From contig VBFO01000088.1 of NCBI GenBank assembly GCA_005881025.1, positions 1 through 40,833 of the forward strand: DNA of 40,833 nt, in the 5' to 3' direction. The notes under the pieces were generated by a model. It was not told the DNA's origin. It did no database searches and saw only the letters and a program-made list of their open reading frames with translations. This document shows, in pieces, positions 2,613 through 36,253 of the stretch. This DNA is from Chloroflexota bacterium. GTDB taxonomy: Bacteria; Chloroflexota; Dormibacteria; Dormibacterales; Dormibacteraceae. A program made the translations under genes and the position numbers. Positions within the stretch are counted from its first letter, which is position 1, and each line of letters begins with the position of its first letter.

Positions 2613-3809
2613 GTGCCGGCAGCGGCCCGACGAAATCTCACCATCGCAGCAGCCGCAGCCGCAACTGCAGTCGCTGCGGTCTACGACCTGTGGCTGTGGC
2701 TGACCAACTACGCCGCCGATAACTTTCACAACGACTTCACCTTCTATTACGCCGCGGCCCGACTTGGGCTGCAGCACGGATGGGCGCGGCTCTACGACCT
2801 GGGGCTGCAGCAGCAGCAGCTCGACGCAATCGAATCGCACATCACAGTCGCGCAGCTGGCGCGCTACGTCAGCCCGCCGCCGCTGGCCTGGCTGATGATC
2901 CCGCTCACGCCGCTTCCCTATCAGATCGCCTACTGGGCCTGGAGCGCGGTGCTCGCCGGCGCGCTCGTGCTGGCGTGGCGGCTCACGGCGCCGGATCAGG
3001 GCCGCGCCAGCCTGATCTTTCTCGTCGCTGCGGTGGGATGGTTGCCGGTCATCTACGGCCTGCAGCTTGGGCAGCCGGCGCTGCTTGTGGCCGCCGCGGT
3101 CGCGTGCTGCAGCTGGCTGCTCAGGCACGACCGGCCCCTTGCCGCGGGCGCGGTGCTGGGCTTTCTGGTGCTCAAGCCACAGCTTGCACTGCTGGTCCCG
3201 CCCGCCCTGCTGGTCATGGGTCGCTGGCGCGCATTTGCAGGCGCGGCAGTCGCGATCGGGCTCCTGGTGGTGGCCTCTTTGATCGCCCTGGGCCCGCAGG
3301 GGACAGAGACCTATCTGGCACGCCTGGCTTTTGCCTCCGGCGTGCCCGAGAACCGATCACAAACGCTAGCCGCATGGATCCCAAATCTGGAGCTGACGCG
3401 GGCGGTCCAGGCGGTGATCGCCGCCTGGACGCTGGCGCTCCTGTACCGGCTGCGCCGCGGCGATGCCCGCATGCCGCTCTCGGTGGCGCTCGTCGGAGGC
3501 CTGGCCGCCAGCCCCTACGCCCACTACGACGACCTCACCATGCTGGGTCTGGCGGCACTCCTGTATCTCGGCGCGCCGCACCCACGCTGGACCTGGACGT
3601 ACTTGCTGGGAGTCGTCATCGCGGCCGAAGGCTTTCCCATTTGGGGCGCAGGGCCGGTGCTGGCTGGAGAGCTCGGTGCTTTGGCCCTGCTCTCAGTCGC
3701 GGCGCTGAAACATGACGACGGCGATGCCGAGCAGCACCACGCCGAAGGCCAACATCACACCGACCTCGAGCGGGATCGGCAGCACGTGGCCATTGATGGT
3801 GAGTCCTAG
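2613..3809 (+). CDS. GT87-like (DUF2029) polyprenyl-sugar mannosyltransferase, membrane
   Basis: This 398-aa polytopic protein has the family's first extracytoplasmic loop pattern, DFTFYYAAARLGLQHG then LYD, in which the first Asp is the presumed catalytic residue of GT-C glycosyltransferases. About ten hydrophobic helices follow. Family members use polyprenyl-phosphate mannose to build envelope glycans; the acceptor here is unknown. The start is the GTG placed 6 nt after a TAGGAT element. The last ~39 residues, from about KHDDGD on, are hydrophilic and lie entirely antisense to the ABC permease at 3693. That tail is probably not conserved and may reflect a frameshift near 3705, since a TGA lies in another frame at 3708. 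Confidence 0.8.
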   Translation: MPAAARRNLTIAAAAAATAVAAVYDLWLWLTNYAADNFHNDFTFYYAAARLGLQHGWARLYDLGLQQQQLDAIESHITVAQLARYVSPPPLAWLMIPLTPLPYQIAYWAWSAVLAGALVLAWRLTAPDQGRASLIFLVAAVGWLPVIYGLQLGQPALLVAAAVACCSWLLRHDRPLAAGAVLGFLVLKPQLALLVPPALLVMGRWRAFAGAAVAIGLLVVASLIALGPQGTETYLARLAFASGVPENRSQTLAAWIPNLELTRAVQAVIAAWTLALLYRLRRGDARMPLSVALVGGLAASPYAHYDDLTMLGLAALLYLGAPHPRWTWTYLLGVVIAAEGFPIWGAGPVLAGELGALALLSVAALKHDDGDAEQHHAEGQHHTDLERDRQHVAIDGES

Positions 3810-8119: not shown

Positions 8120-9034
8120 CTGCTCGACTTCTCCCCACCTCAGGACCTCACCGCGCCAGATCGGATCAGGCGATCGGTGGCGCTGCTGCGCCGGCGAGGC
8201 TACGCGCTTACGCCTGACGTGCTGGGCGCGTTGTGCGTAGGCGGCTCGATGCGGGAGGACGATGTGCGCTGGGCTGTCGCATCCGCGGGCGACCTCACAC
8301 TCGTCCACGACCTGGTCGTAGCTCGCGAAGGGATTCCGCGACTGGACGAGATACGGGCTCGTGCAGCCGGACACGAGTCGGCGGCCTCCGCCTACATCGG
8401 GATGACGCAGAGTTTCGTGCGCACGCTCGTCGCCTGCGCGCCATTCATCCGCAGCGTCTGGATAGCAGGCTCGCTGGCGTCCGGTGGGTTCCGAGACACC
8501 GATGACGTTGACCTCAACCTGGTCGTGGACGACGGTCATCGCCACCTTGCCTACGTCGCGGTGAACACGCTGGGCATGCTGCACGCACTCCAGCACCGCA
8601 GCAAACCAGTGGACGATCTGACCCGCAGGCCGATCGCCCCGCGCCTGATGACCGCGAACCTGATCCTCGAACGCCGGCAGACTCGACCTCTCGATCGCGT
8701 GGATGCAGGCATGGCATTCGAGCTGATGGTCTCCGAGCCTGTATACGGTCTGGATGTTTACCGCGAGATAGTGGAAGCCAACCCGGCGCTGCTCGAGCAC
8801 TTCCCGCAGCTGTCGCGTCGTCCGGCGCCTTTTCTGATTGAACCAGCGCCCCGGGCTCGCTTGCCCCGATGGCTGTTTCCGGCCTGGGCCGACGGCGCGG
8901 CTCGCGCGCTCGGTGGCGCGGCGTGGAGGTACATGCAGTGGACGCGACGCCACCGGCCCGAGGCGCTCGCGCGTGTGGCCTTCGTTCGCGAGACGATGCG
9001 GCCATACACCCTCTTCGACACGGCGGGTGATTAG
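8120..9034 (+). CDS. nucleotidyltransferase-fold protein (Pol-beta superfamily)
   Basis: This is about 304 aa from CTG 8120, or 285 aa from GTG 8177. The CTG is preferred because of the perfectly spaced GGAGGT and because the extra residues (PQDLTAPDRIRRS) read naturally into the body. The core motif is AGSLASGGFRDTDDVDLNLV at about residues 115-135. It matches the GSxAxG...DxD pattern of the Pol-beta/MNT nucleotidyltransferases, with the two metal-binding Asp residues. The rest is helical and Arg-rich and ends in hydrophobic stretches. The substrate is unknown; antitoxin-like MNT, sugar or lipid nucleotidyltransferase are all possible. Its stop shares one base with the next start (TAGTG), so it belongs to the glycosyltransferase operon. 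Confidence 0.75.
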   Translation: MLDFSPPQDLTAPDRIRRSVALLRRRGYALTPDVLGALCVGGSMREDDVRWAVASAGDLTLVHDLVVAREGIPRLDEIRARAAGHESAASAYIGMTQSFVRTLVACAPFIRSVWIAGSLASGGFRDTDDVDLNLVVDDGHRHLAYVAVNTLGMLHALQHRSKPVDDLTRRPIAPRLMTANLILERRQTRPLDRVDAGMAFELMVSEPVYGLDVYREIVEANPALLEHFPQLSRRPAPFLIEPAPRARLPRWLFPAWADGAARALGGAAWRYMQWTRRHRPEALARVAFVRETMRPYTLFDTAGD

Positions 9035-12000
9035 TGGAGTTCACCACCGGGATCGTCGCCCTGCTCGCTGCGACCAGCGTCCTGCTCCTCGGCTTCGGCG
9101 CCAACCTTCTTTACCTGACCTGGCACGCCGCCCGCCTGAAGAGCCCGCGGCAGCCACCTGCGGGCCATGGGGACGAGCCGCTGGTCTGCGTGCAGATACC
9201 CGTCTACAACGAGCGCTACGTGGCGCGCCGTGTCATCGACGCGGTATGCGGCCTCGAGTGGCCGCGCGATCGCTTCGAGGTGCAGGTACTCGACGACTCG
9301 GACGATGACACTGTCGCGATAGTCGCCGGCCGCGCTGCCCGCTGGTCGAGGCGGGGCGTTTCGATCTCCCATGTGCGCCGAGGCAGCCGCGCCGGGTTCA
9401 AGGCCGGGGCCCTCGCGCATGGCCTGAAGGCCACGGCGGCGCCCTTCATCGCGATCTTCGACGCCGATTTCGTACCGCCTACCGACTTTCTTCGCCGGAC
9501 CATCGGTGCGTTCGGTGATCCGGAGGTCGGATTCGTGCAGGCGCGCTGGGGCCACCTGGATGAGGGCTACTCGTGGTTCACGAGGCTGCAGGCTCTCGCC
9601 ATCGACTTCCACTTCCTGGTCGAGCAGGCGGTCCGTTCCGCGCGCGGCTACTTCACCAACTTCACCGGCACGGCCGGCGTCTGGCGCCGCGCCGCGATCG
9701 AGGACTCGGGCGGGTGGAGCGCGAGGACGCTGACCGAGGACCTCGACCTGAGCTACCGCGCACAGCTGCGCGGCTGGCGCGCGGTCTACCTGGAGGACCT
9801 GGTCGTGCCGGAAGAGCTGCCGGTGTCGATCGACGCTTACCGGCGTCAGCAGTCGCGATGGGCCACCGGTAGCTTCCAGGCTGCGTTCAGCCTGCTGATG
9901 CCGGTGATGCGCAGCGGCCACCGGCCGGCGGTCAAGTTTCAGGCGGCTGTGCACCTGCTCGCGTATGCCGTTGGCCCCTTGATGCTCGTCCAGCTCGGCT
10001 GCTACCCGGTGCTGCTCCTGAGCGAGGCGCATCACTCGTTTCCGTGGGCGGTGCCGGCCGCTGCTGTCTGGATCAACCTGGTGAGCGCATCGCCGTGGAT
10101 AGGGTTCGCGGTCGCCCAGACGCGACGCGGTAGGCCATGGTGGTGGGGGGCGCCGGCGCTTCTCTGCCAGGTGGTTGGCGCCGGCATGAGCTTCACGGTG
10201 ATGGTCGCGGCCGCGCGCGCGACCCGTGCCGGCGGGCAGTTCGTGCGCACGCCCAAGTATCAGATCGTGCACCGGGGCCAGGAATGGCGGGATCAGGCCT
10301 ACGTTCGCGCCGGCGACCCACGCGCTTTTGGCGAGGCCCTGCTTGGAGTGGCTGCGTTCATCACCCTGGGGATCGCGATCACTGGCCGTGAGGCGTTGAT
10401 CGCCGTGTACTCCGGGGTCTTCGCCCTTGGCTTCCTCATCCTGGCCTCGATGACCGCTATCGAGTTCCTGGAGGTGATGACGCTGCGCAGCCTCGGGCTG
10501 CGCGCGCTGCGCACCATACGAGCGGTCGCGCCGGTGGCCGGCTTTCTGGCGGCGTGCGGCGCCCTGCTGCTGGCCGCAGCCCAGATGCCACAGCCGTTCG
10601 AGGACGGGTTCGCGCACTGGTTGGTGGCGGCCAACCTGGCCGCGACCGGGCACCTTCACGATCCGCTTTTCGGCATGGAGGACACGTGGCTTCCGGGTTA
10701 CCACCTGGTCGGAGCGGGCGTGCTGAGGCTGTTCGGACCGGGCAACATCGACGCGCTGCGCGTCGCGGGCGTCCTGCTGGGCGTCATCACGCTGGGGATC
10801 GTCTACAGGCTCGCCCCCACTGCCAGGCAGGGCAGGCTCGCGGTCGCGCTCCTGGCCCTCAACCCGGTCTTCCTCTTCACCGCGAGCGCCACCGTGGCGG
10901 AACCGCTCATGACCGCCCTGCTGAGCGCCGCAGCGCTGGCCGCCATCCGCGCCCGCACAAGGCTGGCGGCAGCACTGGCGCTGCTTGCGTGCCTGACCGC
11001 CACCAAAGCATGGCTCTGGGTGGGAGCGGCGATCGCATTTGCACTTGCCGCGCAGCTGGCCGCGATGGGACGCAAGGCGAGGTTGGGCGTCGCACCGCGA
11101 TGGAGCTTGCGCACCAGTGGGGTTTTTGCAGTGCCGGCGATTGCTGTGCTGCTCTTCCTGCAGCTTGGCTTCGTACCGGTCTCACACTCGCTCGCGCGCG
11201 GTTCGCTCGAGGTGATGTCCGCGACCGCGCGAGGCAGCCTCCCCGGTACCGCCCTCTCGCGTGTGTTCGAGCTTGGCTCGATGTTCGGCCTGGCGGCTCT
11301 GCCGCTGGTCGTCTTTGGAGTCGTCGGTCTCGTGCTCGCGCTGCGATCACCACGATTGGCCGGCGGGACTGCCGCCCTCCGCTTCCTGCACCTCCCCGCC
11401 GCAGCCTACCTGGCGGCGGTCTTCCTCCTGGTGGCTGTCGGGGCGTATTCCGGCAGCCACAGATATCTCTACCCGGTCCTTCCATCGCTCGCGCTGCTGG
11501 CGGCGGCGACGCTGGACCGCAATCCAGCCGCGACGCGGCTGATCGCAGTCGGTGCCTCCGCGATCCTGTCGGTGGCCTACCTGCCGGTCTTCGCAAGCTT
11601 CGCCCTGGACAACCAGGGATTGATCGCCGCCGGCCGCGCGGCGAGCGGCACCCGCGGCGTCCTCCTGACCGACTCACCGGTGGTCGCTTTCTACAGCGGT
11701 AAGTCGCCGGCCGACATCACCGGATCGCAGAGCCTTCCCCTCGACCCGGATCAGGCTGTGGCCTGGATCCGCCAGCGAGGCGTCACCGAGGTCGTGGTCG
11801 AGGACATCAGCTACTACCGTGCAACTGCCGTCTTCCCCGGCCTGGCGGCCGGCCAGGCCACTCCCCCATTCGAGCCGTTGGGTGACCAGAGCTACTACAC
11901 GGTGCCGGGCGGCAAGACCGTTCATGCGTACCGGCTGGGTGCCGCTCTCGACCAGCAGTCGCTTTACCCAGGTGTCGACGCCGCAGTGCTGCCGAGCCCG

Positions 12001-12633
12001 CACCAGGGCAAGACCGCGCCGCTGGCGAAAGGCGTCACGCTCACGTTGGCCGGCGTGACCGCCGCAGGCGAAGGCATGGGCTTCGGGGTCCCCATCGTGA
12101 GGTACCCGGATGGTTGGATCTTCCCCAGCACCTCCGAGACAGTAGATCTGTCCTCCGGTGGTGTGGCCAGATGGCGGCGCATCTACGTGCTGGACGAGGT
12201 TGGAGGCAACGCAGTGCCCGGCGGCGGGGGGTTCGATTTCGCGCCAACGGCCGCTCGCGGAAGAGTCGAGGTCACCTATGCGGTCGCCGGTGACTCGATC
12301 GACATCACGGTGCGTCCGCTCGAGCTGCAGCCAGGTTATGAGCAGGTGGCGATCCTCAACGAGGAGTCGGGCGCTTTCAACGATTTCGCTGACACGTCGC
12401 GGACGCTGATCGGTAGCCGTTTCGGCAGCTGGGTGCCGGTCGCCGGCGACTGGGCCCGGCTTCGGGCCGGCAGCCTCGGGGTCGAGTGGTCGCTGCCGGC
12501 AATTCCGGGCGCACAGCTCTATGCCGGCCGCGAGGTTTCGAGCCCCAGCTTTGACTGGGCCGGACTCGACTATGTGTTCGACGGTCGGTTCTCGGGCGCG
12601 AGCTATCGGATTCAGGTGCAACCGGCGAGGTGA
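9034..12633 (+). CDS. bifunctional membrane glycosyltransferase: GT2 domain fused to GT39/ArnT-like domain
   Basis: This very large 1199-aa protein has three parts. Residues ~1-330 are a processive-type GT2 (cellulose-synthase-like) domain: VQIPVYNER, DDSDDD near 85, DAD at about 143-145, TEDLDL at about 233 and QQSRW at about 271-275. Membrane helices flank it. Residues ~490-900 form a second polytopic module with an acidic first loop (FEDGFAHW at about 521) and LPGYHLVGAG, as in GT-C enzymes such as PMT/ArnT that use lipid-linked sugars. The C-terminal ~270 residues are beta-rich and probably extracytoplasmic. It could make a lipid-linked sugar and transfer it outside the membrane. It starts at GTG within TAGTG. 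Confidence 0.88.
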   Translation: MEFTTGIVALLAATSVLLLGFGANLLYLTWHAARLKSPRQPPAGHGDEPLVCVQIPVYNERYVARRVIDAVCGLEWPRDRFEVQVLDDSDDDTVAIVAGRAARWSRRGVSISHVRRGSRAGFKAGALAHGLKATAAPFIAIFDADFVPPTDFLRRTIGAFGDPEVGFVQARWGHLDEGYSWFTRLQALAIDFHFLVEQAVRSARGYFTNFTGTAGVWRRAAIEDSGGWSARTLTEDLDLSYRAQLRGWRAVYLEDLVVPEELPVSIDAYRRQQSRWATGSFQAAFSLLMPVMRSGHRPAVKFQAAVHLLAYAVGPLMLVQLGCYPVLLLSEAHHSFPWAVPAAAVWINLVSASPWIGFAVAQTRRGRPWWWGAPALLCQVVGAGMSFTVMVAAARATRAGGQFVRTPKYQIVHRGQEWRDQAYVRAGDPRAFGEALLGVAAFITLGIAITGREALIAVYSGVFALGFLILASMTAIEFLEVMTLRSLGLRALRTIRAVAPVAGFLAACGALLLAAAQMPQPFEDGFAHWLVAANLAATGHLHDPLFGMEDTWLPGYHLVGAGVLRLFGPGNIDALRVAGVLLGVITLGIVYRLAPTARQGRLAVALLALNPVFLFTASATVAEPLMTALLSAAALAAIRARTRLAAALALLACLTATKAWLWVGAAIAFALAAQLAAMGRKARLGVAPRWSLRTSGVFAVPAIAVLLFLQLGFVPVSHSLARGSLEVMSATARGSLPGTALSRVFELGSMFGLAALPLVVFGVVGLVLALRSPRLAGGTAALRFLHLPAAAYLAAVFLLVAVGAYSGSHRYLYPVLPSLALLAAATLDRNPAATRLIAVGASAILSVAYLPVFASFALDNQGLIAAGRAASGTRGVLLTDSPVVAFYSGKSPADITGSQSLPLDPDQAVAWIRQRGVTEVVVEDISYYRATAVFPGLAAGQATPPFEPLGDQSYYTVPGGKTVHAYRLGAALDQQSLYPGVDAAVLPSPHQGKTAPLAKGVTLTLAGVTAAGEGMGFGVPIVRYPDGWIFPSTSETVDLSSGGVARWRRIYVLDEVGGNAVPGGGGFDFAPTAARGRVEVTYAVAGDSIDITVRPLELQPGYEQVAILNEESGAFNDFADTSRTLIGSRFGSWVPVAGDWARLRAGSLGVEWSLPAIPGAQLYAGREVSSPSFDWAGLDYVFDGRFSGASYRIQVQPAR

Positions 12634-12638
12634 TGAAC

Positions 12639-13967
12639 ATGTCGAAGACCGATGTCGTGCTCGTCTATCCGCAGCGAGCGCCGGTGCATGGGCGGCACTG
12701 GATCATGCCCTCCCTTGGGCTCATGTACCTGAGCGCTTCTCTCCGGCAGGCGGGATACACGGTGAGGCACATCGACCACACGTTCCTCGAGCGCAGCGAC
12801 GTGCTCGAGCAGATCGACATGCTCAAGCCTTCGGTGATCGGCATCTACTGCATGATCACGATGCAGGACGAGGCGCTGTCGCTGGCGGCGCAAGTTCGCG
12901 ACAAAGCGCTGACAGTGGTGGGCGGACCCTACCCGTCCGGCGAGCCCGAGACCTTCGTGGACGACTTCGACCTGGTCGCGGTCGGAGAGGGCGAGGAGAC
13001 GATAGTCCAGATCATGCGGCACCTCGACGATCGCGCCTTCGACGACATCCCAGGCCTGGTGTTCAAGCGCGACGGATACGTCGTCAAGACCGAGGGCCTT
13101 CATCGCAGCAAAGACATGTCGCACCTCCCGCTGCCCTACCGGGGGGACATCCCCAACCACGAGTACATCGCGTACTGGCGCAAGCACTGGAAGGACGCCA
13201 CCACGCCTCTTATGTCCACTCGCGGCTGTCCTTTCCGCTGTGATTTCTGCCACAAGTCGGTATTCGGTGACCTGTTCAGCGCGCGGCCCGTCGAATCGGT
13301 GGTGGCCGAGATGCGCGAGATCGCGGAGCTGGGTTACGACCACGTCTGGATGTCGGACGACCTTTTCACGCTCAACTACCGGCGGACGTTCGAGCTGGCG
13401 CAGGCCATCGAAGAAGCCCACCTCCCACTGACGTGGGAGTGCCTCAGCCGGGTGACCCACGTCGACAAGCCGCTGTTCGACCAGATGCGTCGCGCCGGGT
13501 GCAAGCGCATCTTCTTCGGTATCGAGTCAGGCGACGAGGCAGTGCTCAAGGAGATGAAGAAAGGCATCACGCCCGACCAGGCGCGGGCCGCCGTCGAGGC
13601 CTGCGTCGCCGCGGGCATCAAGGCAGCTGGTTTCTTCATGGTCGGTTATCTGGGAGAGACGACCGACTCGCTGATCCGCAGCATCAACTTCTCCAGCAGC
13701 CTGCCGCTGGATTACGTGAGCTACACGATCGCTTATCCGCTGCCGGGCACCGGCTTCTACGAACGCGTGCGTGAGCGCCGGCAGCTCGGCGAATGGCACA
13801 AGGTCCGCCACAACCGGCTCCTGTTCAACACCGATTTCTCAGAGCACAAGCTGCGAGCCGCGATCCTGAAGGGAGCCATCCAGCACCGTCTCAACAAGCT
13901 GCACATGAAGCCTGCCGCCAGAGCCTTCGAGCTCGCCACCGACCCGGTGCTACGCGCACTGCGTTAG
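12639..13967 (+). CDS. B12-binding-domain radical SAM protein
   Basis: This 442-aa protein starts at ATG 12639, chosen because GAGGTG lies 7 nt upstream; GTG 12630 and ATG 12633 overlap the previous stop and are alternatives. The N-terminal ~150 residues form the Rossmann-like cobalamin-binding domain of class B radical SAM enzymes (PSLGLMYLSASLRQAGY, VVGGPYPS, VGEGEET). The radical SAM core follows with the cluster motif Cys197-x3-Cys201-x2-Cys204 (CPFRCDFC). Later motifs are GIESGDE and GFFMVGYLGET. Such enzymes methylate or rearrange unreactive carbons, often in lipids, sugars or natural products. Being inside a glycosyltransferase operon, it may modify an envelope lipid or glycan; the substrate is unknown. 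Confidence 0.93.
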   Translation: MSKTDVVLVYPQRAPVHGRHWIMPSLGLMYLSASLRQAGYTVRHIDHTFLERSDVLEQIDMLKPSVIGIYCMITMQDEALSLAAQVRDKALTVVGGPYPSGEPETFVDDFDLVAVGEGEETIVQIMRHLDDRAFDDIPGLVFKRDGYVVKTEGLHRSKDMSHLPLPYRGDIPNHEYIAYWRKHWKDATTPLMSTRGCPFRCDFCHKSVFGDLFSARPVESVVAEMREIAELGYDHVWMSDDLFTLNYRRTFELAQAIEEAHLPLTWECLSRVTHVDKPLFDQMRRAGCKRIFFGIESGDEAVLKEMKKGITPDQARAAVEACVAAGIKAAGFFMVGYLGETTDSLIRSINFSSSLPLDYVSYTIAYPLPGTGFYERVRERRQLGEWHKVRHNRLLFNTDFSEHKLRAAILKGAIQHRLNKLHMKPAARAFELATDPVLRALR

Positions 13968-14878
13968 CGGCCGCTGCCCTTCTGGTCCTGGCCGGGTGCG
14001 GCAACGCCACGGCGCCCGCGCCTCACACGAGCGCCACCCAGACTGGCGTCATCCTGCTGTCGCTCCATGACGGCGCCCAGCTAGGCGCGGCCACGCTTGG
14101 AGCGGACCCGGTGGCGGTCATCGTCTCCGCTGACGGTCGAGCCGCCTACGTCGCCGACAGCTCACCGGGTGACGTGTACGCGGTCAGCGTCCCCGCACTG
14201 ACCGTGATGTGGAGGCAGCACGTCGGCGGCTCGCCGTTTGGACTGCTTCTGCATTCAGGTCATCTGTTCGTCAGCCTGTTCGCCGCCGAGGCGGTGCTCG
14301 AGCTGGAACCTTCGAGTGGAGCTCGGATTGCCACTCACCGTGTTCCTGCCGCCCCGGCCGTGCTCGGCGTCGATGACATGAATCGCGTGATCGTGGCCGG
14401 CCGGCAAGGCAGCCTCGCCTCCCTCGACGGAGCCTCACGACCGGCTGGGAAGGGCTTTTCGGTGGCGATCTCCGGCCACGATGTCTGGACGGAGGACTAC
14501 GACCGGTCGTTCTTGCAGCGCGTGGGCGATGGACATCGCGTGAACCTACCGCTGGCGGTGCACCCGTTCTGGATCGCACCTGGTGGGCCCGGAAAGCTGC
14601 TCGTGTCTGCGGAAGGAGCCGACGAGGACGCCGACCCGGGAGCGGTGTTCCAGTTCGACGTCATGTCCGAGGCCTTCACCACTCTGACGAGCCCACGAGA
14701 TCCGGACCAGGTGCTTCAATCCGGGTCGCAGGTGCTGATAGCGGCCCACGGCGACAGGGAGGTCCTCGCGATCGAAGGCACCCAGACGAGGGTCTGGGCA
14801 CGCGGCGCGCCCGCGGTCGCGCTGGCGGTCGTGCCGGGAATGGACGCAGCGCTGGTGGTGGTCAACGACCATGAGTGA
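13952..14878 (+). CDS. secreted lipoprotein, beta-propeller-like; start codon unresolved
   Basis: The body is about 308 aa. A good lipoprotein signal, RTALAAAALLVLAGC, begins right at the end of the radical SAM gene. No ATG, GTG or TTG occurs in frame close to it. The codon exactly where a start is expected is ACG at 13952, followed by CGC ACT GCG. The first in-frame ATG is 13793, which would add a 53-residue hydrophilic tail antagonistic to a signal peptide. The mature part has repeated units such as SADGRAAYVADSSPGDVYAVS, similar to YVTN-type propeller blades. It lies between the radical SAM and DoxX genes. The binding partner is unknown. The true start may be a rare ACG or a mutated or misread ATG. 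Confidence 0.65.
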   Translation, partial: TRTALAAAALLVLAGCGNATAPAPHTSATQTGVILLSLHDGAQLGAATLGADPVAVIVSADGRAAYVADSSPGDVYAVSVPALTVMWRQHVGGSPFGLLLHSGHLFVSLFAAEAVLELEPSSGARIATHRVPAAPAVLGVDDMNRVIVAGRQGSLASLDGASRPAGKGFSVAISGHDVWTEDYDRSFLQRVGDGHRVNLPLAVHPFWIAPGGPGKLLVSAEGADEDADPGAVFQFDVMSEAFTTLTSPRDPDQVLQSGSQVLIAAHGDREVLAIEGTQTRVWARGAPAVALAVVPGMDAALVVVNDHE

Positions 14879-15359
14879 GATCCCCACCAAATCCGAGGCT
14901 GCGCCGAGTTCGCGAGGGGCCCTGGAATCGGCCTGGCCGAGCCTCCTCAGGCTCACGGCAGGCCTGTTCTGGCTCTACTTTGCGATGCAGAAGTGGCAGG
15001 GGATCGACTGGATGAGATCGGTGATCAAGTCGACCGCTGACGCCAACCCCATTCCCGGCCTGCACCAGCTCCTGACCGATGTCGTGGTGCCCAACTGGCA
15101 GCTGTTTGCCCTCGGCCAGGCAGCGGGGGAAACGCTGGCTGCCTTCCTTCTCATCCTGGGCCTCGCCACTCGGTGGGCCGGCATCCTTGGCTTGCTCCTG
15201 GCGGCGAACCTCGCCCTCACCGTCGCCTTCGCCATCAGCGACGACGGCTTCCGATGGCTCTACTGGCTCGCCGTGGTGGTGAACGCACAGGTGATCGTTT
15301 CAGGGCCGGGACCCATTGCGTTGTCTCGGTTCGGGTGGGTGCCCGCGATCCTGCGCTGA
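14871..15359 (+). CDS. DoxX-family membrane protein
   Basis: This 162-aa protein has four hydrophobic segments in the DoxX arrangement: RLTAGLFWLYFAMQKWQG as helix 1, then LGQAAGETLAAFLLILGLATRWAG and two more. DoxX proteins are small quinone-associated or thiol-redox membrane proteins; some are thiosulfate:quinone oxidoreductase subunits and many have no known role. The start ATG overlaps the lipoprotein's stop by 8 nt (ATGAGTGA), making it the last gene of the operon that begins at 8120. Confidence 0.85.
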   Translation: MSEIPTKSEAAPSSRGALESAWPSLLRLTAGLFWLYFAMQKWQGIDWMRSVIKSTADANPIPGLHQLLTDVVVPNWQLFALGQAAGETLAAFLLILGLATRWAGILGLLLAANLALTVAFAISDDGFRWLYWLAVVVNAQVIVSGPGPIALSRFGWVPAILR

Positions 15360-15392: not shown

Positions 15393-15827
15393 GTGGGACT
15401 TGACGCAGAGGGTTACGGATTTCCTGAGCACGAGCGCACCCTGGCGAGGCTGATGTCAGACGTACGCGTCATGGGCCCTGCCGGAGTCGAACGCGCGGCA
15501 GAGGGGTGGGACAGGTACGCCGGCAAGGCGGGGCTGGCTTCGTTTCATGAGGCGGAGCGTGCCGCCACTCACGCCGTCGAACAGCACGAGCGGGGCGCAG
15601 CCTGGGACACGTTTCGCAGCTCTCTGTTCGGCCTGACCGAGTCCGGGGAGGCGCTCGTCTCCTGGAAGGCGGAGCACGGCGACATCGGGCACAAGGCAGA
15701 GGATGCTGCGTTTGGGGCGGCGCTGGCGCTGGTGGCGGGAAACCTGATCAAGCCCGAGCAGTTCGCCACTCTCGTGAGGCCGATGGCGGAGGCACTGCCC
15801 TGGCTGCTGCCTGACGAAGGGCCCTAG
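15393..15827 (+). CDS. conserved-looking small soluble protein of unknown function
   Basis: This 144-aa protein is acidic, Ala/Glu-rich and mostly helical by composition, with no membrane segment, signal peptide or cysteine. I do not recognise a family. The GTG start is supported by the TACGCT element 7 nt upstream, and codon usage (G/C in third positions) supports a real gene. Weak blocks include HEAERAATHAVEQHERGAAW and a C-terminal IKPEQFATLVRPM. It is separated from the upstream operon by 33 nt and from the lactate permease by 98 nt. Confidence 0.65.
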   Translation: MGLDAEGYGFPEHERTLARLMSDVRVMGPAGVERAAEGWDRYAGKAGLASFHEAERAATHAVEQHERGAAWDTFRSSLFGLTESGEALVSWKAEHGDIGHKAEDAAFGAALALVAGNLIKPEQFATLVRPMAEALPWLLPDEGP

Positions 15828-17855: not shown

Positions 17856-20558
17856 GTGAGCAGCGCCCCGCCCACACCGGAAGCCACGGTCGTCCTGAAG
17901 GACGGATCGACTGTGGCCGTGCGCCCGATCCGGCCCGACGACGAGTCGGCGCTGGCCGACTTCTACACGAGGCTTTCGCCGGAGTCACAGTCCTATCGGT
18001 TTTTCGCCGCACCTGCTGACGTGCGCGAGATCGCCAAGCGCATGGTCATCGCCGGGTACGAATCACAGTTCGGGCTGGTTGCAACCTCGGCCACAGAGGT
18101 GGTCGGCCACGCCGTCTACATCGTCACGGGCGGCCGGCGTGCGGAGATGGGCCTCGCCATCGCCGATGGGTTCCAGGGTCGCGGCCTTGGGCTCTTGCTG
18201 TTCGCCCAGCTTGCGGACGCGGCCGCGCACGCAGGCATCGAGGTGTTCGAGGCCGTCGTCAAGGCCGACAACACGAGAATGCTCGAGCTGCTGCGGGAGA
18301 GCGGATTCCCGCTGCGCCTCCGCTCCGAGCCGGGTGAGGTGCACGCGGAGCTCGCGACTGCGCCGAGCGACGAAGCCGGGATCCACTTCGAGCGCCGCAA
18401 CGCGCTCTCGGCCCAAGCAGCGGTCCAGCGTTTCCTTGCCCCACGCTCGATTGTGCTGATCGGATCGGCGTTTGACCCTGACACCACCGATGGGACGCTG
18501 ATGCGCCACATGCTCGAGGGCGGATTCGCCGGACGCTTGCTCCTTGTCAACGGCACCGGAGCCCACGTTCAAGGCCTCACCGCGTTCACGTCGGTGCGTG
18601 ACATCCCCGGCGATGTCGACCTGGCCGTGATCACGTTGCCTGCGGCCCAGGTGGTGGCCGCCGCAGAGGAATGCGCCGCCAAGGGTGTGCACGCGCTGGT
18701 CGTGATCTCTCCCGGATTCGCGGAGTCAGGCGGCGAAGGGATCGTGCATCAGCAGCAGCTGCTCGAGATCTGCCGTCGCACCGGAATGCGCCTGGTTGGA
18801 CCCAACTGCTCGGGCGTGATCAACACCGCTCCAGCCGTGCGCCTCAACGCGAGCGTCATCGCAGGGCTGCCCCCTCAAGGCCGGATCGGCTTCATGTCGC
18901 AGAGTGGAAGCCTCGGCACAGCCATCATCGAGCTGGCCCGCGTGCAGGGAACCGGATTCTCGTCGTTCGTGTCAGTCGGAAACAACGCCGACATCTCGGC
19001 CATCGACCTGCTGCAGTACTGGGAGGCCGACGCCGATACCAACCTGGTGATGCTGTACCTCGAATCATTCGGTGACCCGCGCCACTTCTCGCGCATCGCA
19101 CGGCGCGTGGGGCGCGAGATGCCCATCCTCGCCGTCAAAGGTGGCCGCTCCGCCTCCGGCGCAAGGGCGGCCACGACCTCGCACTCGGGCACCCTGACCA
19201 GACCTTCGACCATCAGGATCGCCACCTCGGGCGTGGGTGAGGACGCCCTGTTCCAGCAAGCCGGGATCATCCGCACGGCGACCCTCGCCGAGCTCTTCGG
19301 CACCGCACAGCTGCTGAGCGATCAGCCGCTGCCGGCCGGTGATCGGGTCGGGATAATCACCAACGCCGGCGGCCCGGGCGTCCTCTGCGCAGACTCCTGC
19401 GAGTTCCGCGGACTCCGCGTCCCTGATCTTGCCGATGAGGTCAAGGTCTCGTTTGCAGGCCTCGTCCCCTCTACGAGCACGCTCCAGAACCCGGTGGTGC
19501 TCCTGGCGCAGGCGGGCACGGCGGAGTACCAGAGAGCGATCACGATCATGGCTGCATCACCTGCAATCGATGCCCTGATCGTGATCTTCACACCGCAGGT
19601 CGGGACCCATGCCGCTGAGGCAGCGGAGGGGATCAGGCGCGCGGCGACCGCACTGCCCCGCGCGGTTCCGATTCTCGCGGTCTTCATGTCGAGCCCCGAG
19701 AGCGCAGCCTTGATCCGAGACGGTGGCGGCCGAGTCCCCGTCTATCCGTTCCCGGAGGATGCTGCCCGTGCGCTCGGCCACGCGCATCGCTACGTGTCCT
19801 GGCGCAAGACTCCATTTGAGTCAGCACCGGAGCTGGGCGGAATCGACTCGCATCGCGCCGCCGCGGTGATCTCGGCCACTCTCGCGCAGGGCCCCGGCTG
19901 GCTTCCTCCGGCGGCCGTCAACGCTCTCCTCGCCTGCTACGGACTCTCGCCCGCCGAATCGGTGCTGGCCGCCAGCCCCCACGACGCGGGAGAGGCAGCG
20001 CGGAAGCTCGGCGGCAAAGTCGCGCTCAAGGGGATGGTCGCAGGGCTGGTGCGCAAGTCAGACGCGGGCGCCGTTCGCCTGGACCTCGAAGGACCGCACG
20101 ACGTGGAGACCGCGGCCAAAGACATCACGCAGAAGCTCGGTGCCCTGGGCCAGAAGGTGCAGGCCTTCATGGTCCAGCGAATGTCGCCCCCGGGAGTCGA
20201 GATGCTGGTGGGCGTCGTACAGGATCGCTACTTCGGTCCGGTGGTGGCCCTGGGCGCGGCGGGTCGCGCGGTCGAGCTGATGAAGGACGCTCAGGTCAGG
20301 CTGACGCCGCTGGGGCGTACCGACGCGGCATCTATGGTCCGCTCGCTCGCCACCTATCCGCTTCTGGATGGATACCGGGGGGCGACACCCGTGGATGTCG
20401 GAGCGTTGGAAGACGTCCTGGTCCGTGTGGCGGCAATGGCGGATGCGCACTCGGAGATCGCGGACGTCGATTTCAACCCCGTCGTCGTTCACCCCACCGG
20501 GACGGTCATCGTCGACGCCCGGATTCGCGTCGAGGCTCCGGCGCAGAGAGACGTTTAG
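17856..20558 (+). CDS. GNAT/NDP-forming acyl-CoA synthetase fusion (Pat-like protein acetyltransferase)
   Basis: This 900-aa protein has an N-terminal GNAT domain (about residues 12-165; VRPIRPDDES, QGRGLGLLLF), then the ADP-forming acetyl-CoA synthetase architecture. CoA-binding comes at about 195-290 (SIVLIGSAFDPD), ligase domains follow (FMSQSGSLGTAI; GVINTAP), and a C-terminal ATP-grasp lies at about 670-895 (VQRMSPPGVEMLVG, DVDFNPVVV). Bacterial Pat proteins combine the same domains and acetylate acetyl-CoA synthetase; E. coli/Salmonella Pat has GNAT last, whereas GNAT first is known from actinobacteria. The segment TTSHSGTL retains a histidine (about residue 443) where active synthetases carry their phosphorylated His, so synthetase activity may persist. 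It lies 20 nt after the permease and starts at GTG. Confidence 0.92.
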   Translation: MSSAPPTPEATVVLKDGSTVAVRPIRPDDESALADFYTRLSPESQSYRFFAAPADVREIAKRMVIAGYESQFGLVATSATEVVGHAVYIVTGGRRAEMGLAIADGFQGRGLGLLLFAQLADAAAHAGIEVFEAVVKADNTRMLELLRESGFPLRLRSEPGEVHAELATAPSDEAGIHFERRNALSAQAAVQRFLAPRSIVLIGSAFDPDTTDGTLMRHMLEGGFAGRLLLVNGTGAHVQGLTAFTSVRDIPGDVDLAVITLPAAQVVAAAEECAAKGVHALVVISPGFAESGGEGIVHQQQLLEICRRTGMRLVGPNCSGVINTAPAVRLNASVIAGLPPQGRIGFMSQSGSLGTAIIELARVQGTGFSSFVSVGNNADISAIDLLQYWEADADTNLVMLYLESFGDPRHFSRIARRVGREMPILAVKGGRSASGARAATTSHSGTLTRPSTIRIATSGVGEDALFQQAGIIRTATLAELFGTAQLLSDQPLPAGDRVGIITNAGGPGVLCADSCEFRGLRVPDLADEVKVSFAGLVPSTSTLQNPVVLLAQAGTAEYQRAITIMAASPAIDALIVIFTPQVGTHAAEAAEGIRRAATALPRAVPILAVFMSSPESAALIRDGGGRVPVYPFPEDAARALGHAHRYVSWRKTPFESAPELGGIDSHRAAAVISATLAQGPGWLPPAAVNALLACYGLSPAESVLAASPHDAGEAARKLGGKVALKGMVAGLVRKSDAGAVRLDLEGPHDVETAAKDITQKLGALGQKVQAFMVQRMSPPGVEMLVGVVQDRYFGPVVALGAAGRAVELMKDAQVRLTPLGRTDAASMVRSLATYPLLDGYRGATPVDVGALEDVLVRVAAMADAHSEIADVDFNPVVVHPTGTVIVDARIRVEAPAQRDV

Positions 20559-27255: not shown

Positions 27256-28845
27256 TCAGCGGTCTTGCAGGCAGGCCCTTCCAGTGCATGCGCCTGACAG
27301 CCACTGCTGCATCTGGTCGGAGAGCTGGCCCAAAGGTGCTCCGCGGGCGAGCACCACCGTATACCCCTTGGAGCACGCGACCCCGTATCCCCCGGCGAGC
27401 GAGTCCTGGACGACACGGCGGAGCGAGTCATCGGGTGAGTTGACACCGCCTGCTGTGGAGACGTCGATCGCGATGTAGTCGGTCTTGCTGTAGGTCGTGA
27501 CCTCGTAGATCTTCGCGCGGCTGGTGAGGTGCGGCACCAACGGATCGGTGGCCGCGACGCTCGCGCCGGCGGGAATCACATCAAGACACTCCTGTATCTG
27601 CTGCGCAGTGCTGTCGGACACGTAGGTCGTGAGCTCGCCAAGCGAGTTGACCACTCCGAAGCTCAGGATCCCACTGGTGGCGAGTGCCGCCGCCGGCAGA
27701 AAGATGGTCGTGACGGAGACAAAGCGCCCGCGGCTCCACGCCTTGAGACGAGCGGCTCCGTCGATCGCTGCGAAGGCAAGGATTGGAGCCGGCAGCATCG
27801 AGTACTGGAAGTGGAATGACCACAGGTTGCTGGACGACGACCAGAACCGCTCGAGGAAGCTCGGGATCGCGATCAGCAGGAGCGGCGAGAGCAGTGGAAG
27901 CAGGAGCCAGTTCGCGAGCGTACCCGCCCCAACGCGCAGCTTCTGCATCGGGGTGGCGAGCAGCTCGAGGCTCTTGATCGGGTGCTCGAGCAGGTACAGG
28001 ACCGCGCTTGAAGGTCCGTTACCCAGTCCCTCGTAAGTCCAGTGCAGGTAGCTGGATCCGCTGAACGCAGGCATCACGTAATCGAGCAGCAAGATGAACC
28101 AAGCACCGTTGAGGATCATCAGCGCGGCTCCGAGCAACGCTCTTCGCTGAACGACCGCGATGTAGAAGCCGAGGGCAATGATCGTCAGCGCGACGTCCTC
28201 GCGGGTCAACATCGCCGCCGCGACTGCTGCCCAGAGGAGCCGTCGCTGGCTATTGACTGCCGCGTACAGAGCGGTCGAGATGGCCGGCACGGCGAAGACG
28301 ACGTGGTGGAAGTCGAAAACCGCACCGGCAAGCACGCCCCAGAAGAGGAGGTACGCGCCCTGGAAGGCGAGCCCTGCGATGCTGCCGAGGCGCTGTGCGC
28401 CCCAGAGGTAGATGGGAATTCCGGCGACGGCCAGCAGGATGCCCTGCGCCACCAGCAGCACTCCTGCGGAGTCCCAGAAGAACCGGAACGGCCCGAGCAC
28501 CATGAGGATCGGGTGAAAGTGATCGCCCAGCAGGTTGGGGATTCCCAGCACCGTGTTGGGGATGATCTGGAGCCGGCTGTAGCCCCAGACCGTCTGATCC
28601 TGGATGCCGAGGTCGAAGCCGTTGGCTGCGAAGTGGTTGTAGCGGAAAAGCGAGATCGTGGAGAACCCGGCCGCCGCGGAGATCGTCATTGCGGCAGCCG
28701 CAGCCTGGGCCCAGGTCAGGCGCCATGGAAGCGCGATTCGCAGCGCAGGCGCGCGCCCGGGCAGTACGGCGATGCCTGGGGAGGCAACCACCTCCGGTTC
28801 GGCGACGGCGACCGGCGGATCCTGAACGGTCACGGACTGCGCCAC
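27256..28845 (-). CDS. DUF2079 polytopic membrane protein
   Basis: This 529-aa protein has about 12-13 hydrophobic helices. DUF2079 hallmarks are visible: FDLGIQDQTVWGYS at about residue 78, GDHFHPILMVLGPF at about 107, VFDFHHVVFAVP, and MLTREDVALTI. Members are GT-C-like membrane proteins, suspected glycosyltransferases using lipid-linked sugars; no enzyme activity is firmly known to me. The C-terminal soluble part (about 420-529) has two paired cysteines near the end. The N-terminal 30 residues are a Pro/Val-rich cytosolic tail. The GTG start at 28845 has neither a clear ribosome site nor a TAnnnT element. Confidence 0.88.
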   Translation of the reverse strand: MAQSVTVQDPPVAVAEPEVVASPGIAVLPGRAPALRIALPWRLTWAQAAAAAMTISAAAGFSTISLFRYNHFAANGFDLGIQDQTVWGYSRLQIIPNTVLGIPNLLGDHFHPILMVLGPFRFFWDSAGVLLVAQGILLAVAGIPIYLWGAQRLGSIAGLAFQGAYLLFWGVLAGAVFDFHHVVFAVPAISTALYAAVNSQRRLLWAAVAAAMLTREDVALTIIALGFYIAVVQRRALLGAALMILNGAWFILLLDYVMPAFSGSSYLHWTYEGLGNGPSSAVLYLLEHPIKSLELLATPMQKLRVGAGTLANWLLLPLLSPLLLIAIPSFLERFWSSSSNLWSFHFQYSMLPAPILAFAAIDGAARLKAWSRGRFVSVTTIFLPAAALATSGILSFGVVNSLGELTTYVSDSTAQQIQECLDVIPAGASVAATDPLVPHLTSRAKIYEVTTYSKTDYIAIDVSTAGGVNSPDDSLRRVVQDSLAGGYGVACSKGYTVVLARGAPLGQLSDQMQQWLSGACTGRACLQDR

Positions 28846-31282: not shown

Positions 31283-31672
31283 ATGACCAGGGAGGACCTG
31301 GACTTCTGCTACCTGACGACGGTCGGCCGCAAGTCAGGTCTCGCCCGAACGATCGAGATCTGGTTCGGCATGGAACGCGACACCGTCTACTTGCTGTCGG
31401 GCGGCGGAGAGGAAGCACACTGGGTGCAGAACCTGCAAGCCGACCATCGGGTCAGCGTCAAGCTCGGACGAAACACCTATCTCGGCACCGGCCGGCTGAT
31501 CAGCGACAAACAAGAGGACGCGAAGGCTCGACGGCTGCTGGCGGCCAAGTACGAGGAGTGGGTGCCCGGGCGGCGGCTGAGCTCATGGGCTCGCAATTCG
31601 CTCCCTATTGCAGTCGACCTCGAGAGGGCGGCCGTCAGGCCGCGAACACGATCAGCACGCCGAGGAGGCTGA
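31283..31672 (+). CDS. second deazaflavin-dependent nitroreductase/quinone reductase family protein
   Basis: This is 129 aa from ATG 31283. Family blocks are YLTTVGRKSGLARTIEIWF at about residues 9-27, VYLLSGGGEEAHWVQNL at about 34-50 and VSVKLG. It belongs to the same broad split-barrel fold (PF04075-like) as its divergent neighbour but to a distinct subgroup, recognised by the SGGG-WV-NL pattern. It probably binds F420 or another flavin-like cofactor. No good ribosome site precedes the ATG. The last 38 nt overlap the 3' end of cobS on the other strand, giving a basic, probably unconserved tail (RPRTRSARRGG). Confidence 0.85.
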   Translation: MTREDLDFCYLTTVGRKSGLARTIEIWFGMERDTVYLLSGGGEEAHWVQNLQADHRVSVKLGRNTYLGTGRLISDKQEDAKARRLLAAKYEEWVPGRRLSSWARNSLPIAVDLERAAVRPRTRSARRGG

Positions 31673-32360
31673 GCTCGGCAACTGCCCCATAGACGTCGCC
31701 AGTCGCACCGCCGATCCGGCGCCTGGCCAGGACCACGACGCAGACCGTGATCAGCGCCGCCACCAGGGTGCTTACCGCGGCTCGGCCGGGATCGAGGAGG
31801 CCGGCGACCGCCGTCAGCGCCGCTCCGAGGGCCAGATCGAACCTCGCGTGGCCGCCCGTTGCTGCTACGCCCAGCCCTGACTGCCTGCTGTAGGGCGCCA
31901 GTGCCACGACGCTCAGGATGGCCAACCTCGACAGGGCGCCCGCGATCACAAGGGCGATCAGCGCTTTAGCGGGCGACATTGCGGCGAGTGCTGCGATGTC
32001 ACCCGCCAGCACGATCACGAGCGCCATCGCTCCGAATGAGCCGACGCGTGGGTCGCGCATCACCTCGAGTCGCCGTTCCAGCGATCCGGCGCCGAACAGG
32101 CCGTCGGCAGCATCGGCCAGGCCGTCGAGGTGGAGACCGCCAGTGAGGGCCGCCAGCACTGCGACCGCTGTCACCGCCCCGACCAGACCGCCGGCGACGG
32201 AGGTCATGGCGATCGATGCAATGCCGGCGATCAGGCCGACCAGCGCTCCCACCGCGGGAAAGTACGCGCGGCCAAGGCGCTCGCCGGGGCTGCCGTCGCG
32301 ATCGGCCGCCGGGATCACGGTCAGAAACGCGACCGCCGATCGCAGCGACCGGATGCTCAA
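31635..32360 (-). CDS. cobS: adenosylcobinamide-GDP ribazoletransferase (cobalamin synthase)
   Basis: This 241-aa membrane enzyme joins adenosylcobinamide-GDP with alpha-ribazole(-phosphate), the last assembly step of B12. The family signature GGLHLDGLADAADGL at about residues 74-88 supplies the metal-binding acidic cluster; RDPRVGSFGAMALV follows. Six to seven helices are visible. The TTG start at 32360 overlaps the cobU stop (TTGA). It is the last gene of the riboswitch-controlled cobalamin operon. Confidence 0.96.
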   Translation of the reverse strand: MSIRSLRSAVAFLTVIPAADRDGSPGERLGRAYFPAVGALVGLIAGIASIAMTSVAGGLVGAVTAVAVLAALTGGLHLDGLADAADGLFGAGSLERRLEVMRDPRVGSFGAMALVIVLAGDIAALAAMSPAKALIALVIAGALSRLAILSVVALAPYSRQSGLGVAATGGHARFDLALGAALTAVAGLLDPGRAAVSTLVAALITVCVVVLARRRIGGATGDVYGAVAELSLLGVLIVFAA

Positions 32361-32887
32361 GAGCGCCTCAGCACCGTCTCGACAGACGTGAGGTCGAGAG
32401 CCCTCCCCGCCACCATCAGCACGGCGCGCTGCGCGGATTCCGCGAACGTGGCGTTGACGCGGCCGAGGACATCCTCGAAACGTCGCGCCAGCTCACTCGC
32501 CGGGATGACGCCCAGGCCCACCTCGTTGGTCACGACCACTGCGTGCCGCGCCACAAGCAGGCCGGCGACATGCCGGCCGGCATCCAGGATGGCGTCCTCG
32601 CTCGTCCCTCGTTCCATCAGATTCGAAACCCAGAGCGTCAGGCAGTCGATCAGAAGGAAGTCATCGTCCGGCGCGGCGGAGACCGCCGCCGCCAGGTCGA
32701 CAGGCGATTCAACGGTGCGCCAGGCGGTGGGTCGATCCCGCCGGTGCCGGCGAATGCGCTCCTTCATCTCTTCGTCCCTCGGCTCGGCTGTCGCGATCAC
32801 GGTCACGTGCAGGCCCGACTGCTCCGCAAGGCGCTGAGCCAGCGCCGACTTGCCGCTGCGCGCGCCGCCGATCAGGAGCGTGAACAC
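32357..32887 (-). CDS. cobU: adenosylcobinamide kinase / adenosylcobinamide-phosphate guanylyltransferase
   Basis: This 176-aa bifunctional enzyme phosphorylates adenosylcobinamide and attaches GMP. P-loop GGARSGKSALAQRLAE is at residues 8-23, and ATAEPRDEEMKERI followed by HRRDRPTAW holds the histidine that takes the GMP in this family. LLIDCLTLWVSNLM and VTNEVGLGVIP complete the signature. The GTG start shares one base with the cobO stop (TAGTG). Length matches the family (~180 aa). Confidence 0.96.
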   Translation of the reverse strand: MFTLLIGGARSGKSALAQRLAEQSGLHVTVIATAEPRDEEMKERIRRHRRDRPTAWRTVESPVDLAAAVSAAPDDDFLLIDCLTLWVSNLMERGTSEDAILDAGRHVAGLLVARHAVVVTNEVGLGVIPASELARRFEDVLGRVNATFAESAQRAVLMVAGRALDLTSVETVLRRS

Positions 32888-33453
32888 TAAAAGTCGATGC
32901 CGCGGATCGCGCGGACCCCGCGGTCGAAGGCGTGTTTTCGGTTTCGCATCTCAGTGACCGTGTCGGCGACCTCGATCAGCGCAGCCGGCGCATCACGGCC
33001 CGTGGCGATGATGTTCAACGTGGGCGGCCGGTTGCGTATCGCCTCGACCACCTCGGCGACTGGTATCCAACCCCAGTTGATGGGATAGGTGATCTCGTCC
33101 AGCACGATCAGCCCGTAAGCCCCGGAGGCGATCTTCTCCTTGCTTACCTTCCAGCCTTCCCGCGCGACGGCCTCCGAGCGCTCCATGTCCTTTGAATCCC
33201 AGGTGAAGCCGTCGCCGATTGTCCACCACTCCACTCCAAGCGCAGTCGCGGACTGCTGCTCGCCCACCTTCCACTTGCCCGACTTGATGAACTGAATCAC
33301 GCACACCTTCCAGCCGCGCGCGACTGCCCTCAGCACGGTCCCGAATGCTGCAGTTGACTTCCCCTTTCCGTCGCCCGTGTTGACGAGCACGACCGACGGT
33401 GCTCGCTTCTCGGCACGCCGTGGCGCCCTCATCGGAACCTCGGTTTGCTTCAC
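32887..33453 (-). CDS. cobO: cob(I)alamin adenosyltransferase (CobA/BtuR type)
   Basis: This 188-aa ATP:corrinoid adenosyltransferase adds the upper adenosyl ligand to corrinoids. Its P-loop is NTGDGKGKSTAAFG at about residues 25-38. IQFIKSGKWKVGE, the acidic Walker-B-like LIVLDEITYPINWGW and the C-terminal KHAFDRGVRAIRGIDF are typical of CobA/CobO. The GTG start 33453 overlaps the btuD stop (GTGA), with GGAGGAG 9 nt upstream inside btuD. The N-terminal ~20 residues are basic. Confidence 0.96.
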   Translation of the reverse strand: MKQTEVPMRAPRRAEKRAPSVVLVNTGDGKGKSTAAFGTVLRAVARGWKVCVIQFIKSGKWKVGEQQSATALGVEWWTIGDGFTWDSKDMERSEAVAREGWKVSKEKIASGAYGLIVLDEITYPINWGWIPVAEVVEAIRNRPPTLNIIATGRDAPAALIEVADTVTEMRNRKHAFDRGVRAIRGIDF

Positions 33454-34235
33454 GCGCGTGATCTCCTCCGAATCGGCACGACCGCGCGGCTGTCCCCGTC
33501 GTGCTCGATGATGCGAACCTGCGCGCCGTACTGGGCGGAGATCGTGGCCTCCGTCAGCACTTCCCGTGGCGGCCCGGCCATCACGACCTCGCCCTCCACC
33601 AGCAGGGCCAGGCGATCTGCATACTGGCCCGCCAGGGTCAGGTCGTGCATGGCCGCGACCACTGTGAGCCCACGCGCCTGCCTGATCTCGTCGATCAACT
33701 CGAGCACGTCCTGCTGGCGGGCGACGTCGAGCGAGCTCGTGGGCTCGTCGACCAGCAGGACCGGCGCCTCCTGAGCCAGGGCGCGGCCGATCGCCGCTCG
33801 CTGGCGCTCACCTCCGCTCAGCTGGTCGAGCGTGCGCCCGGCAAAAGCCTGGAGGGCGAGGCGGTCGAGGATCGCCGCCACGACGGTCATATCGCGCCGC
33901 CCCTCCCGGCCGAGGTAGCCGAGATGCGGCCCCCGACCGAGCATCACGTAGTGCGAGACGGCCATGCCCACAGGCATGTGCGGTGCCTGCGGCACCATCG
34001 CCACGCGCCGAGCCAGCTCCACGCCGCGCAGAGCGCCGACGTGGTCGCCACCGATGGTGATATCGCCCGTGAACTGGGTCAGGCGCGCGATGGCGCGCAG
34101 GACGCTGCTCTTCCCGGCGCCGTTTGGCCCGACCAGGGTCAGCCACTCGCCCGCCGCCACATCGAGGTCAATCTGCTTTACCGCATTGAGGCGCCCATAC
34201 GCGATCGAGAGGTTGCGCAGGCTGATCGCACTCAC
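33450..34235 (-). CDS. btuD: cobalamin ABC transporter ATP-binding protein
   Basis: This is 261 aa from GTG 34235, which overlaps the btuC stop as GTGA. Walker A GPNGAGKSS is at about residues 37-45, signature LSGGERQRAAIGRAL, Walker B PVLLVDEPTSSLD and switch His in VVAAMHDLTLAGQY. It is a FepC/BtuD-type ATPase partner of FecCD permeases, and its place between btuC and cobO and behind a B12 riboswitch identifies corrinoid as the substrate. Siderophore transport would be the alternative from sequence alone. Confidence 0.93.
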   Translation of the reverse strand: MSAISLRNLSIAYGRLNAVKQIDLDVAAGEWLTLVGPNGAGKSSVLRAIARLTQFTGDITIGGDHVGALRGVELARRVAMVPQAPHMPVGMAVSHYVMLGRGPHLGYLGREGRRDMTVVAAILDRLALQAFAGRTLDQLSGGERQRAAIGRALAQEAPVLLVDEPTSSLDVARQQDVLELIDEIRQARGLTVVAAMHDLTLAGQYADRLALLVEGEVVMAGPPREVLTEATISAQYGAQVRIIEHDGDSRAVVPIRRRSRA

Positions 34236-36237: not shown

Positions 36238-36245
36238 CCGGCGTT

Positions 36246-36251
36246 CCTCCC
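36246..36251 (-). promoter_or_regulatory. btuF ribosome binding site next to riboswitch 3' end
   Basis: GGGAGG on the minus strand, 8 nt before ATG 36237, lies only a few bases after the conserved GCCACTG of the riboswitch. This spacing would allow the switch to hide the site when B12 is bound. Confidence 0.65.
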
Positions 36252-36253
36252 GC

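Follow-up and report, generated by a model that had tools for sequence, protein, structure and literature searches.

The window analysed here is the whole 40,833-nt contig VBFO01000088.1 (GenBank assembly GCA_005881025.1) of a Chloroflexota bacterium of the family Dormibacteraceae. The host is a Dormibacterota metagenome-assembled genome (MAG) from soil, 2.6 Mb in size and 87% complete. The plus strand exhibits five consecutive open reading frames (ORFs), all present in the window, in the order NT, GT, rSAM, PROP and DoxX. They form a putative operon, for which we favour a role in tailoring a surface glycan, centred on a nucleotidyltransferase-like protein (NT) and a radical S-adenosylmethionine (SAM) protein with a B12-binding domain (rSAM):

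8120..9034, plus strand: NT, Pol-beta-type nucleotidyltransferase-like protein (motif GSLASGGFRDTDDVDL, AlphaFold model, Foldseek).
9034..12633, plus strand: GT, 1199-aa membrane protein, a predicted fusion of GT2 and GT-C glycosyltransferases (GT2 Pfam models, Foldseek, motifs).
12630..13967, plus strand: rSAM, radical SAM protein with a B12-binding domain and a CxxxCxxC motif (CPFRCDFC) (PF04055 and PF02310).
13952..14878, plus strand: PROP, optional lipoprotein, candidate beta-propeller, with lipobox LAGC (alignment with 9 homologues).
14871..15359, plus strand: DoxX, small membrane protein, last gene of the operon (PF07681).

A sequence-only reading of this DNA had described the five genes as tightly packed, with overlaps of 1 to 8 nt or a near-zero gap. 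All five ORFs are real and the packing is tight; the overlaps span a wider range, reaching about 16 nt. NT and GT share 1 nt (TAGTG), and GT and rSAM meet at GTGATG, overlapping by 1 or 4 nt, the start of rSAM being GTG 12630 or ATG 12633. With ACG 13952 as the start of PROP, its overlap with rSAM amounts to about 16 nt; PROP and DoxX overlap by 8 nt. A scan for sigma-70 promoters, uninformative here, found none, and terminator-like sites occur at about the level of shuffled sequences. A comparison with PHROGs gave nothing useful. The flanking genes look like housekeeping genes, a delta-1-pyrroline-5-carboxylate dehydrogenase (on the opposite strand) and a lactate permease.

The order NT-GT-rSAM-(PROP)-DoxX is kept in the complete related loci. 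The fusion GT was identified in 38 of the 42 genomes of the family, and NT together with rSAM in 33 of the 37 genomes searched, partly as fragments at contig ends. Four genomes (G004, G011, G015 and G016) contain only distant GT2s and have neither NT, rSAM nor the fusion GT; for G015 this absence is weak evidence, because the genome is only 71% complete. A conserved neighbourhood in relatives, looked for here since its lack would speak against a single unit, was therefore found. These neighbour tables rest on gene calls made within this analysis, and the genomes are MAGs of varying completeness. Two apparent in-frame fusions were rejected: GT with rSAM in L074, where the true C-terminus of GT lies in another frame and the usual GTGATG junction is present, and an rSAM-DoxX-type fusion in L091, which is a read-through via a shifted frame.

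In the narrow sense NT is confined to the window's family, with three weak matches elsewhere in the phylum. Following these three matches uncovered a wider association: two of the three loci also hold a B12-domain radical SAM protein (30-32% identical), and two loci found through rSAM hold an NT homologue. One set of 301 genomes of the phylum, which in part includes the seeds, was searched with both profiles, of NT and rSAM (A5 and A6). The NT profile matches 33 of the 301 genomes, and all 33 carry a group-A rSAM. The rSAM scores are bimodal, exceeding 500 bits in 34 genomes and then dropping to 330; a single genome (G173) exhibits a high-scoring rSAM without NT. Nineteen of the 33 genomes with NT were either seeds of the profiles or members of the window's family; the other 14 were not used as seeds. 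Of these 14, 11 show the two matches on the same strand and no more than 300 bp apart; in the remaining ones the matches lie 1.1 kb apart (one), 4.7 kb apart (one) or on different contigs (one). The co-occurrence is significant both over all genomes (Fisher p = 3e-43) and for the 14 (p = 9e-23), neither value being corrected for phylogeny. These sequence comparisons indicate that the NT-rSAM pairing is older than the window's family.

The five genes could also be loose neighbours, sharing a promoter and serving separate pathways. PROP is optional, co-transcription of the operon is putative, and genome G004, without the operon, has a DoxX homologue (50% identical; L134:11292-11726) directly after a lactate-permease homologue, as such a reading would allow. 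The order kept throughout the family, the joint absence of the genes, and an NT-rSAM association seen in several gene orders across the phylum argue against it and make it the least probable of the explanations considered. The comparisons indicate that chance does not explain the five-gene arrangement, which is conserved in the family and, in part, in the phylum.

The distant loci tell in what company the pair is found. In five loci of the family f8 (L166-L170), the genes stand in the order O-antigen ligase, GT2, NT and rSAM, with NT and rSAM separated by a SPASM gene in one of them; the f8 GT2 is 41-44% identical to the GT2 half of the window's GT over 413-484 residues. Pfam models identify in L166 Wzy_C, Polysacc_synt (a flippase), two GT4, a methyltransferase and a nucleoside-phosphorylase-like protein. 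Other distant loci contain Wzy_C, a flippase, a weak match to PMT_2 or, in L123, a priming bacterial sugar transferase. With Polysacc_synt, Wzy_C and GT4 genes around the pair, these loci resemble polysaccharide loci of the Wzx/Wzy type. Their gene content is that expected for the assembly of surface polysaccharides or glycolipids. The Dormibacterota operon differs from Wzx/Wzy loci in having no local flippase or ligase, and carries the GT2::GT-C fusion, DoxX and the lipoprotein instead. The proposal of envelope modification in the sequence-only reading thus fits glycan or glycolipid work, by way of the homologous pairs in loci with Wzx, O-antigen ligase and GT4; the multi-step pathway attached to it holds in part only. 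Separately, loci of Acidobacteriota (L096-L100) contain several B12-domain radical SAM genes, mostly in tandem, and along with them methyltransferases, a SPASM protein and an HPr-kinase-like gene. The NT profile found no NT in these Acidobacterial loci, and a candidate second nucleotidyltransferase in L097 (15584-17092) was rejected as a TPR protein.

The assignment of the third gene to the radical SAM proteins with a B12-binding domain is confirmed by two Pfam domains above their cut-offs (PF04055, E-value = 3.7e-26, 92.7 bits; PF02310, E-value = 2.2e-16, 60.2 bits against a cut-off of 32.1), cobalamin binding itself being predicted. The three cluster cysteines (C200, C204 and C207) are invariant in 16 sequences. 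The protein is 74-90% identical within the family, and the named relatives of its gene are nearly all from Dormibacterota or soil 'Chloroflexi' MAGs. The best matching PDB sequence for the rSAM profile is MgmA (9ccb, E-value = 1.8e-29), a class B B12-dependent radical SAM methyltransferase sharing with rSAM the B12-binding and radical SAM domains and the CxxxCxxC motif. The second is AprD4 (6fd2, E-value = 3.4e-25, over the SAM domain), from the biosynthesis of apramycin, an aminoglycoside (sugar-type) pathway. rSAM scores below every NCBIfam equivalog cut-off for B12 radical SAM proteins (MgmA, HpnJ, PhpK, BchE, AprD4), with 148.9 against 360 at best and, for AprD4, 98 against 500 bits. C-methylation is the commonest reaction of the B12-dependent radical SAM class, and for this reason we favour it, with moderate confidence, as the reaction of rSAM.

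NT exhibits the motif GSLASGGFRDTDDVDL, of which D110 and D112 are invariant in the family. A Foldseek search with its AlphaFold model (predicted local distance difference test, pLDDT, 81) retrieves 2rff, MNT antitoxins and AadA with a probability of 0.9-1.0, but with E-values above 0.001; DrrA and AMPylating MNT proteins are also among the fold matches. From the motif and these weak fold matches, NT looks like a Pol-beta-type nucleotidyltransferase. It resembles AadA, the MNT antitoxins and 2rff in its GS/DxD motif and by these weak fold matches, and differs from them in an N-terminal helical region, in the lack of any family match or of a fold match below an E-value of 0.001, and in a gene context that is neither toxin-antitoxin, as for MNT, nor resistance, as for AadA. 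No Pfam or NCBIfam family, sugar-nucleotide pyrophosphorylases included, matches NT at a meaningful score. Pol-beta-type enzymes move a nucleotidyl group to a hydroxyl or a protein and usually do not synthesize nucleoside diphosphate sugars. The sugar 'activation' step formerly assigned to NT is therefore to be dropped. The first standard start codon of NT is GTG 8177; since homology extends upstream of it and since in several relatives a GTG occupies the position of CTG 8120 in the window or lies one codon away, a start at CTG 8120 is plausible.

GT was modelled at full length (pLDDT 77; predicted template modelling score, pTM, 0.50). It would comprise a cellulose-synthase-like GT2 domain (aa ~40-420) with DAD, TED and QQSRW motifs, a polytopic GT-C-like domain (~430-960) with FED and an EDTWLP loop, and a C-terminal beta domain (~961-1199). 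PF13641 (E-value = 1.3e-27) and other GT2 Pfam models match the protein, and its sequence profile matches BcsA (E-value = 8e-26). Foldseek retrieves BcsA and the GT-C enzymes STT3, ALG12 and AftD (E-values of 1e-5 to 1e-3). GT shares the core with its DAD, TED and QQSRW motifs with BcsA and related GT2s; unlike BcsA and CelA, it is fused to a GT-C-like half and lies far below the CelA cut-off (119.7 against 699.1 bits). As for the proposed 'GT2/GT39-like fusion', the GT2 half stands and the second half is GT-C-like by fold; the GT39/PMT label is not retained, as Pfam gives no GT39/PMT match for this protein. By analogy, the GT-C-like half may stand in for the separate ligase of the other families.

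These domain matches leave room for substrates other than a glycan. One is a membrane lipid: rSAM would act, as do HpnJ, HpnR or the ladderane-associated radical SAM protein, on a hopanoid-like or other lipid, which GT would glycosylate. Weak NCBIfam matches to these three are found for the rSAMs, and to HpnI/HpnB for the GT2s, and the phosphorylase-like neighbour in the distant family has a weak HpnG score. All of these scores are far below the curated cut-offs, and Wzx and O-antigen ligase, both encoded in the distant loci, work on glycans, so that we regard lipid tailoring as rather unlikely. Its specific form, a hopanoid pathway, was rejected on the scores of rSAM and GT under the cut-offs and on the lack of a squalene-hopene cyclase match in this MAG (87% complete).

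The other substrate is a surface or membrane protein, methylated by rSAM, AMPylated by NT and perhaps also glycosylated by GT. The nearest solved relative of rSAM, MgmA, is a B12-dependent glutamine methyltransferase acting on methyl-coenzyme M reductase (PMC11796369), the folds retrieved with NT include DrrA and the AMPylating MNT proteins, and the GT-C matches include STT3, which glycosylates proteins. Modification of a protein is nevertheless improbable, given the optional lipoprotein and the polysaccharide export genes in the distant loci; between the core genes we noticed no small conserved precursor peptide, though no systematic search for one was made.

The explanation we prefer is a conserved glycan-tailoring module, with an old core of NT and the B12-domain rSAM, that has become one condensed operon in the Dormibacterota family; its probability may be put at roughly 55%. 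Its output would be a radical-modified surface glycan or glycolipid. Observed here are the genes present, their conservation and domain types, the association of NT with rSAM, and the glycan-type loci around the distant homologues; the scheme below is predicted with respect to substrate, reaction type, sidedness, the role of NT and product. The NT-rSAM core often has as neighbours a GT2 of the cellulose-synthase-like kind, a membrane transferase or ligase of GT-C type, and genes for export. rSAM would modify, most likely C-methylate, a sugar or glycolipid precursor in the cytoplasm, and NT would nucleotidylate either this precursor or a partner protein. The GT2 domain would transfer a nucleotide-activated sugar on the inner face of the membrane, and the GT-C and beta domains would carry out transfer on the outer face, with DoxX and, in some species, the lipoprotein as membrane accessories.

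Several observations weigh against the glycan-tailoring explanation. A flippase, ligase or priming transferase was not found next to the operon in the window, and the glycan made by the fusion might therefore be an unrelated one; Wzy_C genes are present elsewhere in all 42 genomes of the family. MgmA, the nearest solved relative of rSAM, methylates a protein and not a sugar (PMC11796369), the context of rSAM being glycan-type. In the tree, the rSAMs of the window's family form a long branch that falls outside both of the main types, and their reaction may therefore differ. The distant NT homologues keep DxD, and some have lost the Ser of the GS motif; catalysis by NT is read from the motif and weak fold matches. 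Finally, distant NT-rSAM loci (L166-L172; for instance L167:15638-16873) hold nucleoside-phosphorylase-like and deaminase-like genes, whose products perhaps recycle the 5'-deoxyadenosine from the radical reaction.

A more specific proposal, which we make tentatively, is that the loci encode an undescribed two-enzyme tailoring system. In it, an obligate pair of NT and a B12-dependent rSAM would equip a sugar or glycolipid, ahead of its export, with a group bound through carbon (C-methyl or rearranged), the GT2::GT-C fusion replacing the ligase/flippase locus in Dormibacterota. Radical B12-type chemistry is otherwise familiar mainly from antibiotics, lipids and the modification of proteins. Should the proposal be true, such chemistry would be a regular component of the way in which Chloroflexota and their soil relatives assemble surface glycans, and would offer a first approach to the envelope chemistry of Dormibacterota, a poorly known group. 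The strict NT-rSAM pairing would serve as a sequence marker for such loci, and a two-gene system is open to in vitro work. In open-licence papers we found no such locus with rSAM and a flippase, an O-antigen ligase, DoxX or Dormibacterota; to call it undescribed is provisional, because the search covered only papers of this kind.

The window also contains a B12 salvage locus (31635-37544, minus strand) with CobS, CobU, BtuR, an ABC ATPase, FecCD, a periplasmic binding protein and a CobT-like phosphoribosyltransferase. This locus had been suggested to feed rSAM. The distribution of CobU, above its cut-off in 18 of the 42 family genomes against 38 of 42 for the operon, does not follow that of the operon, and carriers without CobU include genomes at 93-99% completeness (G020, G018, G010 and G006 among them). 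Because CobU is patchy and the host genome holds other B12-domain proteins, the proximity of the salvage locus is no evidence of a dedicated supply. The carriers without CobU may import cobalamin.

PROP, located between rSAM and DoxX, is present in 11 of 35 loci, which does not agree with its proposed part as a needed step of the pathway. No Pfam or NCBIfam family matches it at a meaningful score; it is perhaps a beta-propeller. Near its lipobox the reading frame offers no standard start codon, and with the first start listed, ATG 13793, PROP and the rSAM gene would share 175 nt. From ACG 13952, translation would give an Arg, a hydrophobic stretch and a Cys (an M-R-hydrophobic-C signal), the same pattern being found in most relatives. 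An ACG in the PROP register requires the rare leucine codon CTA in the rSAM frame (region 13947-13967); only 28 of the 1251 leucines of these genes are encoded by CTA. At this rSAM position, CTA is found in 10 of 11 loci with PROP versus 2 of 21 without (Fisher p ~1e-5, computed on 20 and uncorrected for relatedness). In one of these two, L063, a recent loss of PROP is possible, since its close relatives L062 and L065 carry the gene. There is thus good indirect evidence, from codon usage and alignment, that PROP starts at a conserved non-canonical ACG codon inside the end of the rSAM gene. DoxX (PF07681, E-value = 3.4e-08, 34.4 bits against a cut-off of 23.6) lies downstream of rSAM or PROP in relatives and is the conserved end of the operon.

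Just 33 nt past DoxX, an ORF (15393-15827) encodes an uncharacterised protein of 144 aa, about 70% identical in close relatives; it was not detected in more divergent members of the family and has no Pfam match. Elsewhere in the window, a second membrane glycosyltransferase, of family GT87, is encoded about 4.3 kb from the operon (2613-3809), and a DUF2079 membrane protein (27256-28845) adjoins a methyltransferase and a GH3-domain protein. Another ORF (17856-20558) corresponds to an ADP-forming acyl-CoA ligase with a fused N-terminal GNAT acetyltransferase domain.

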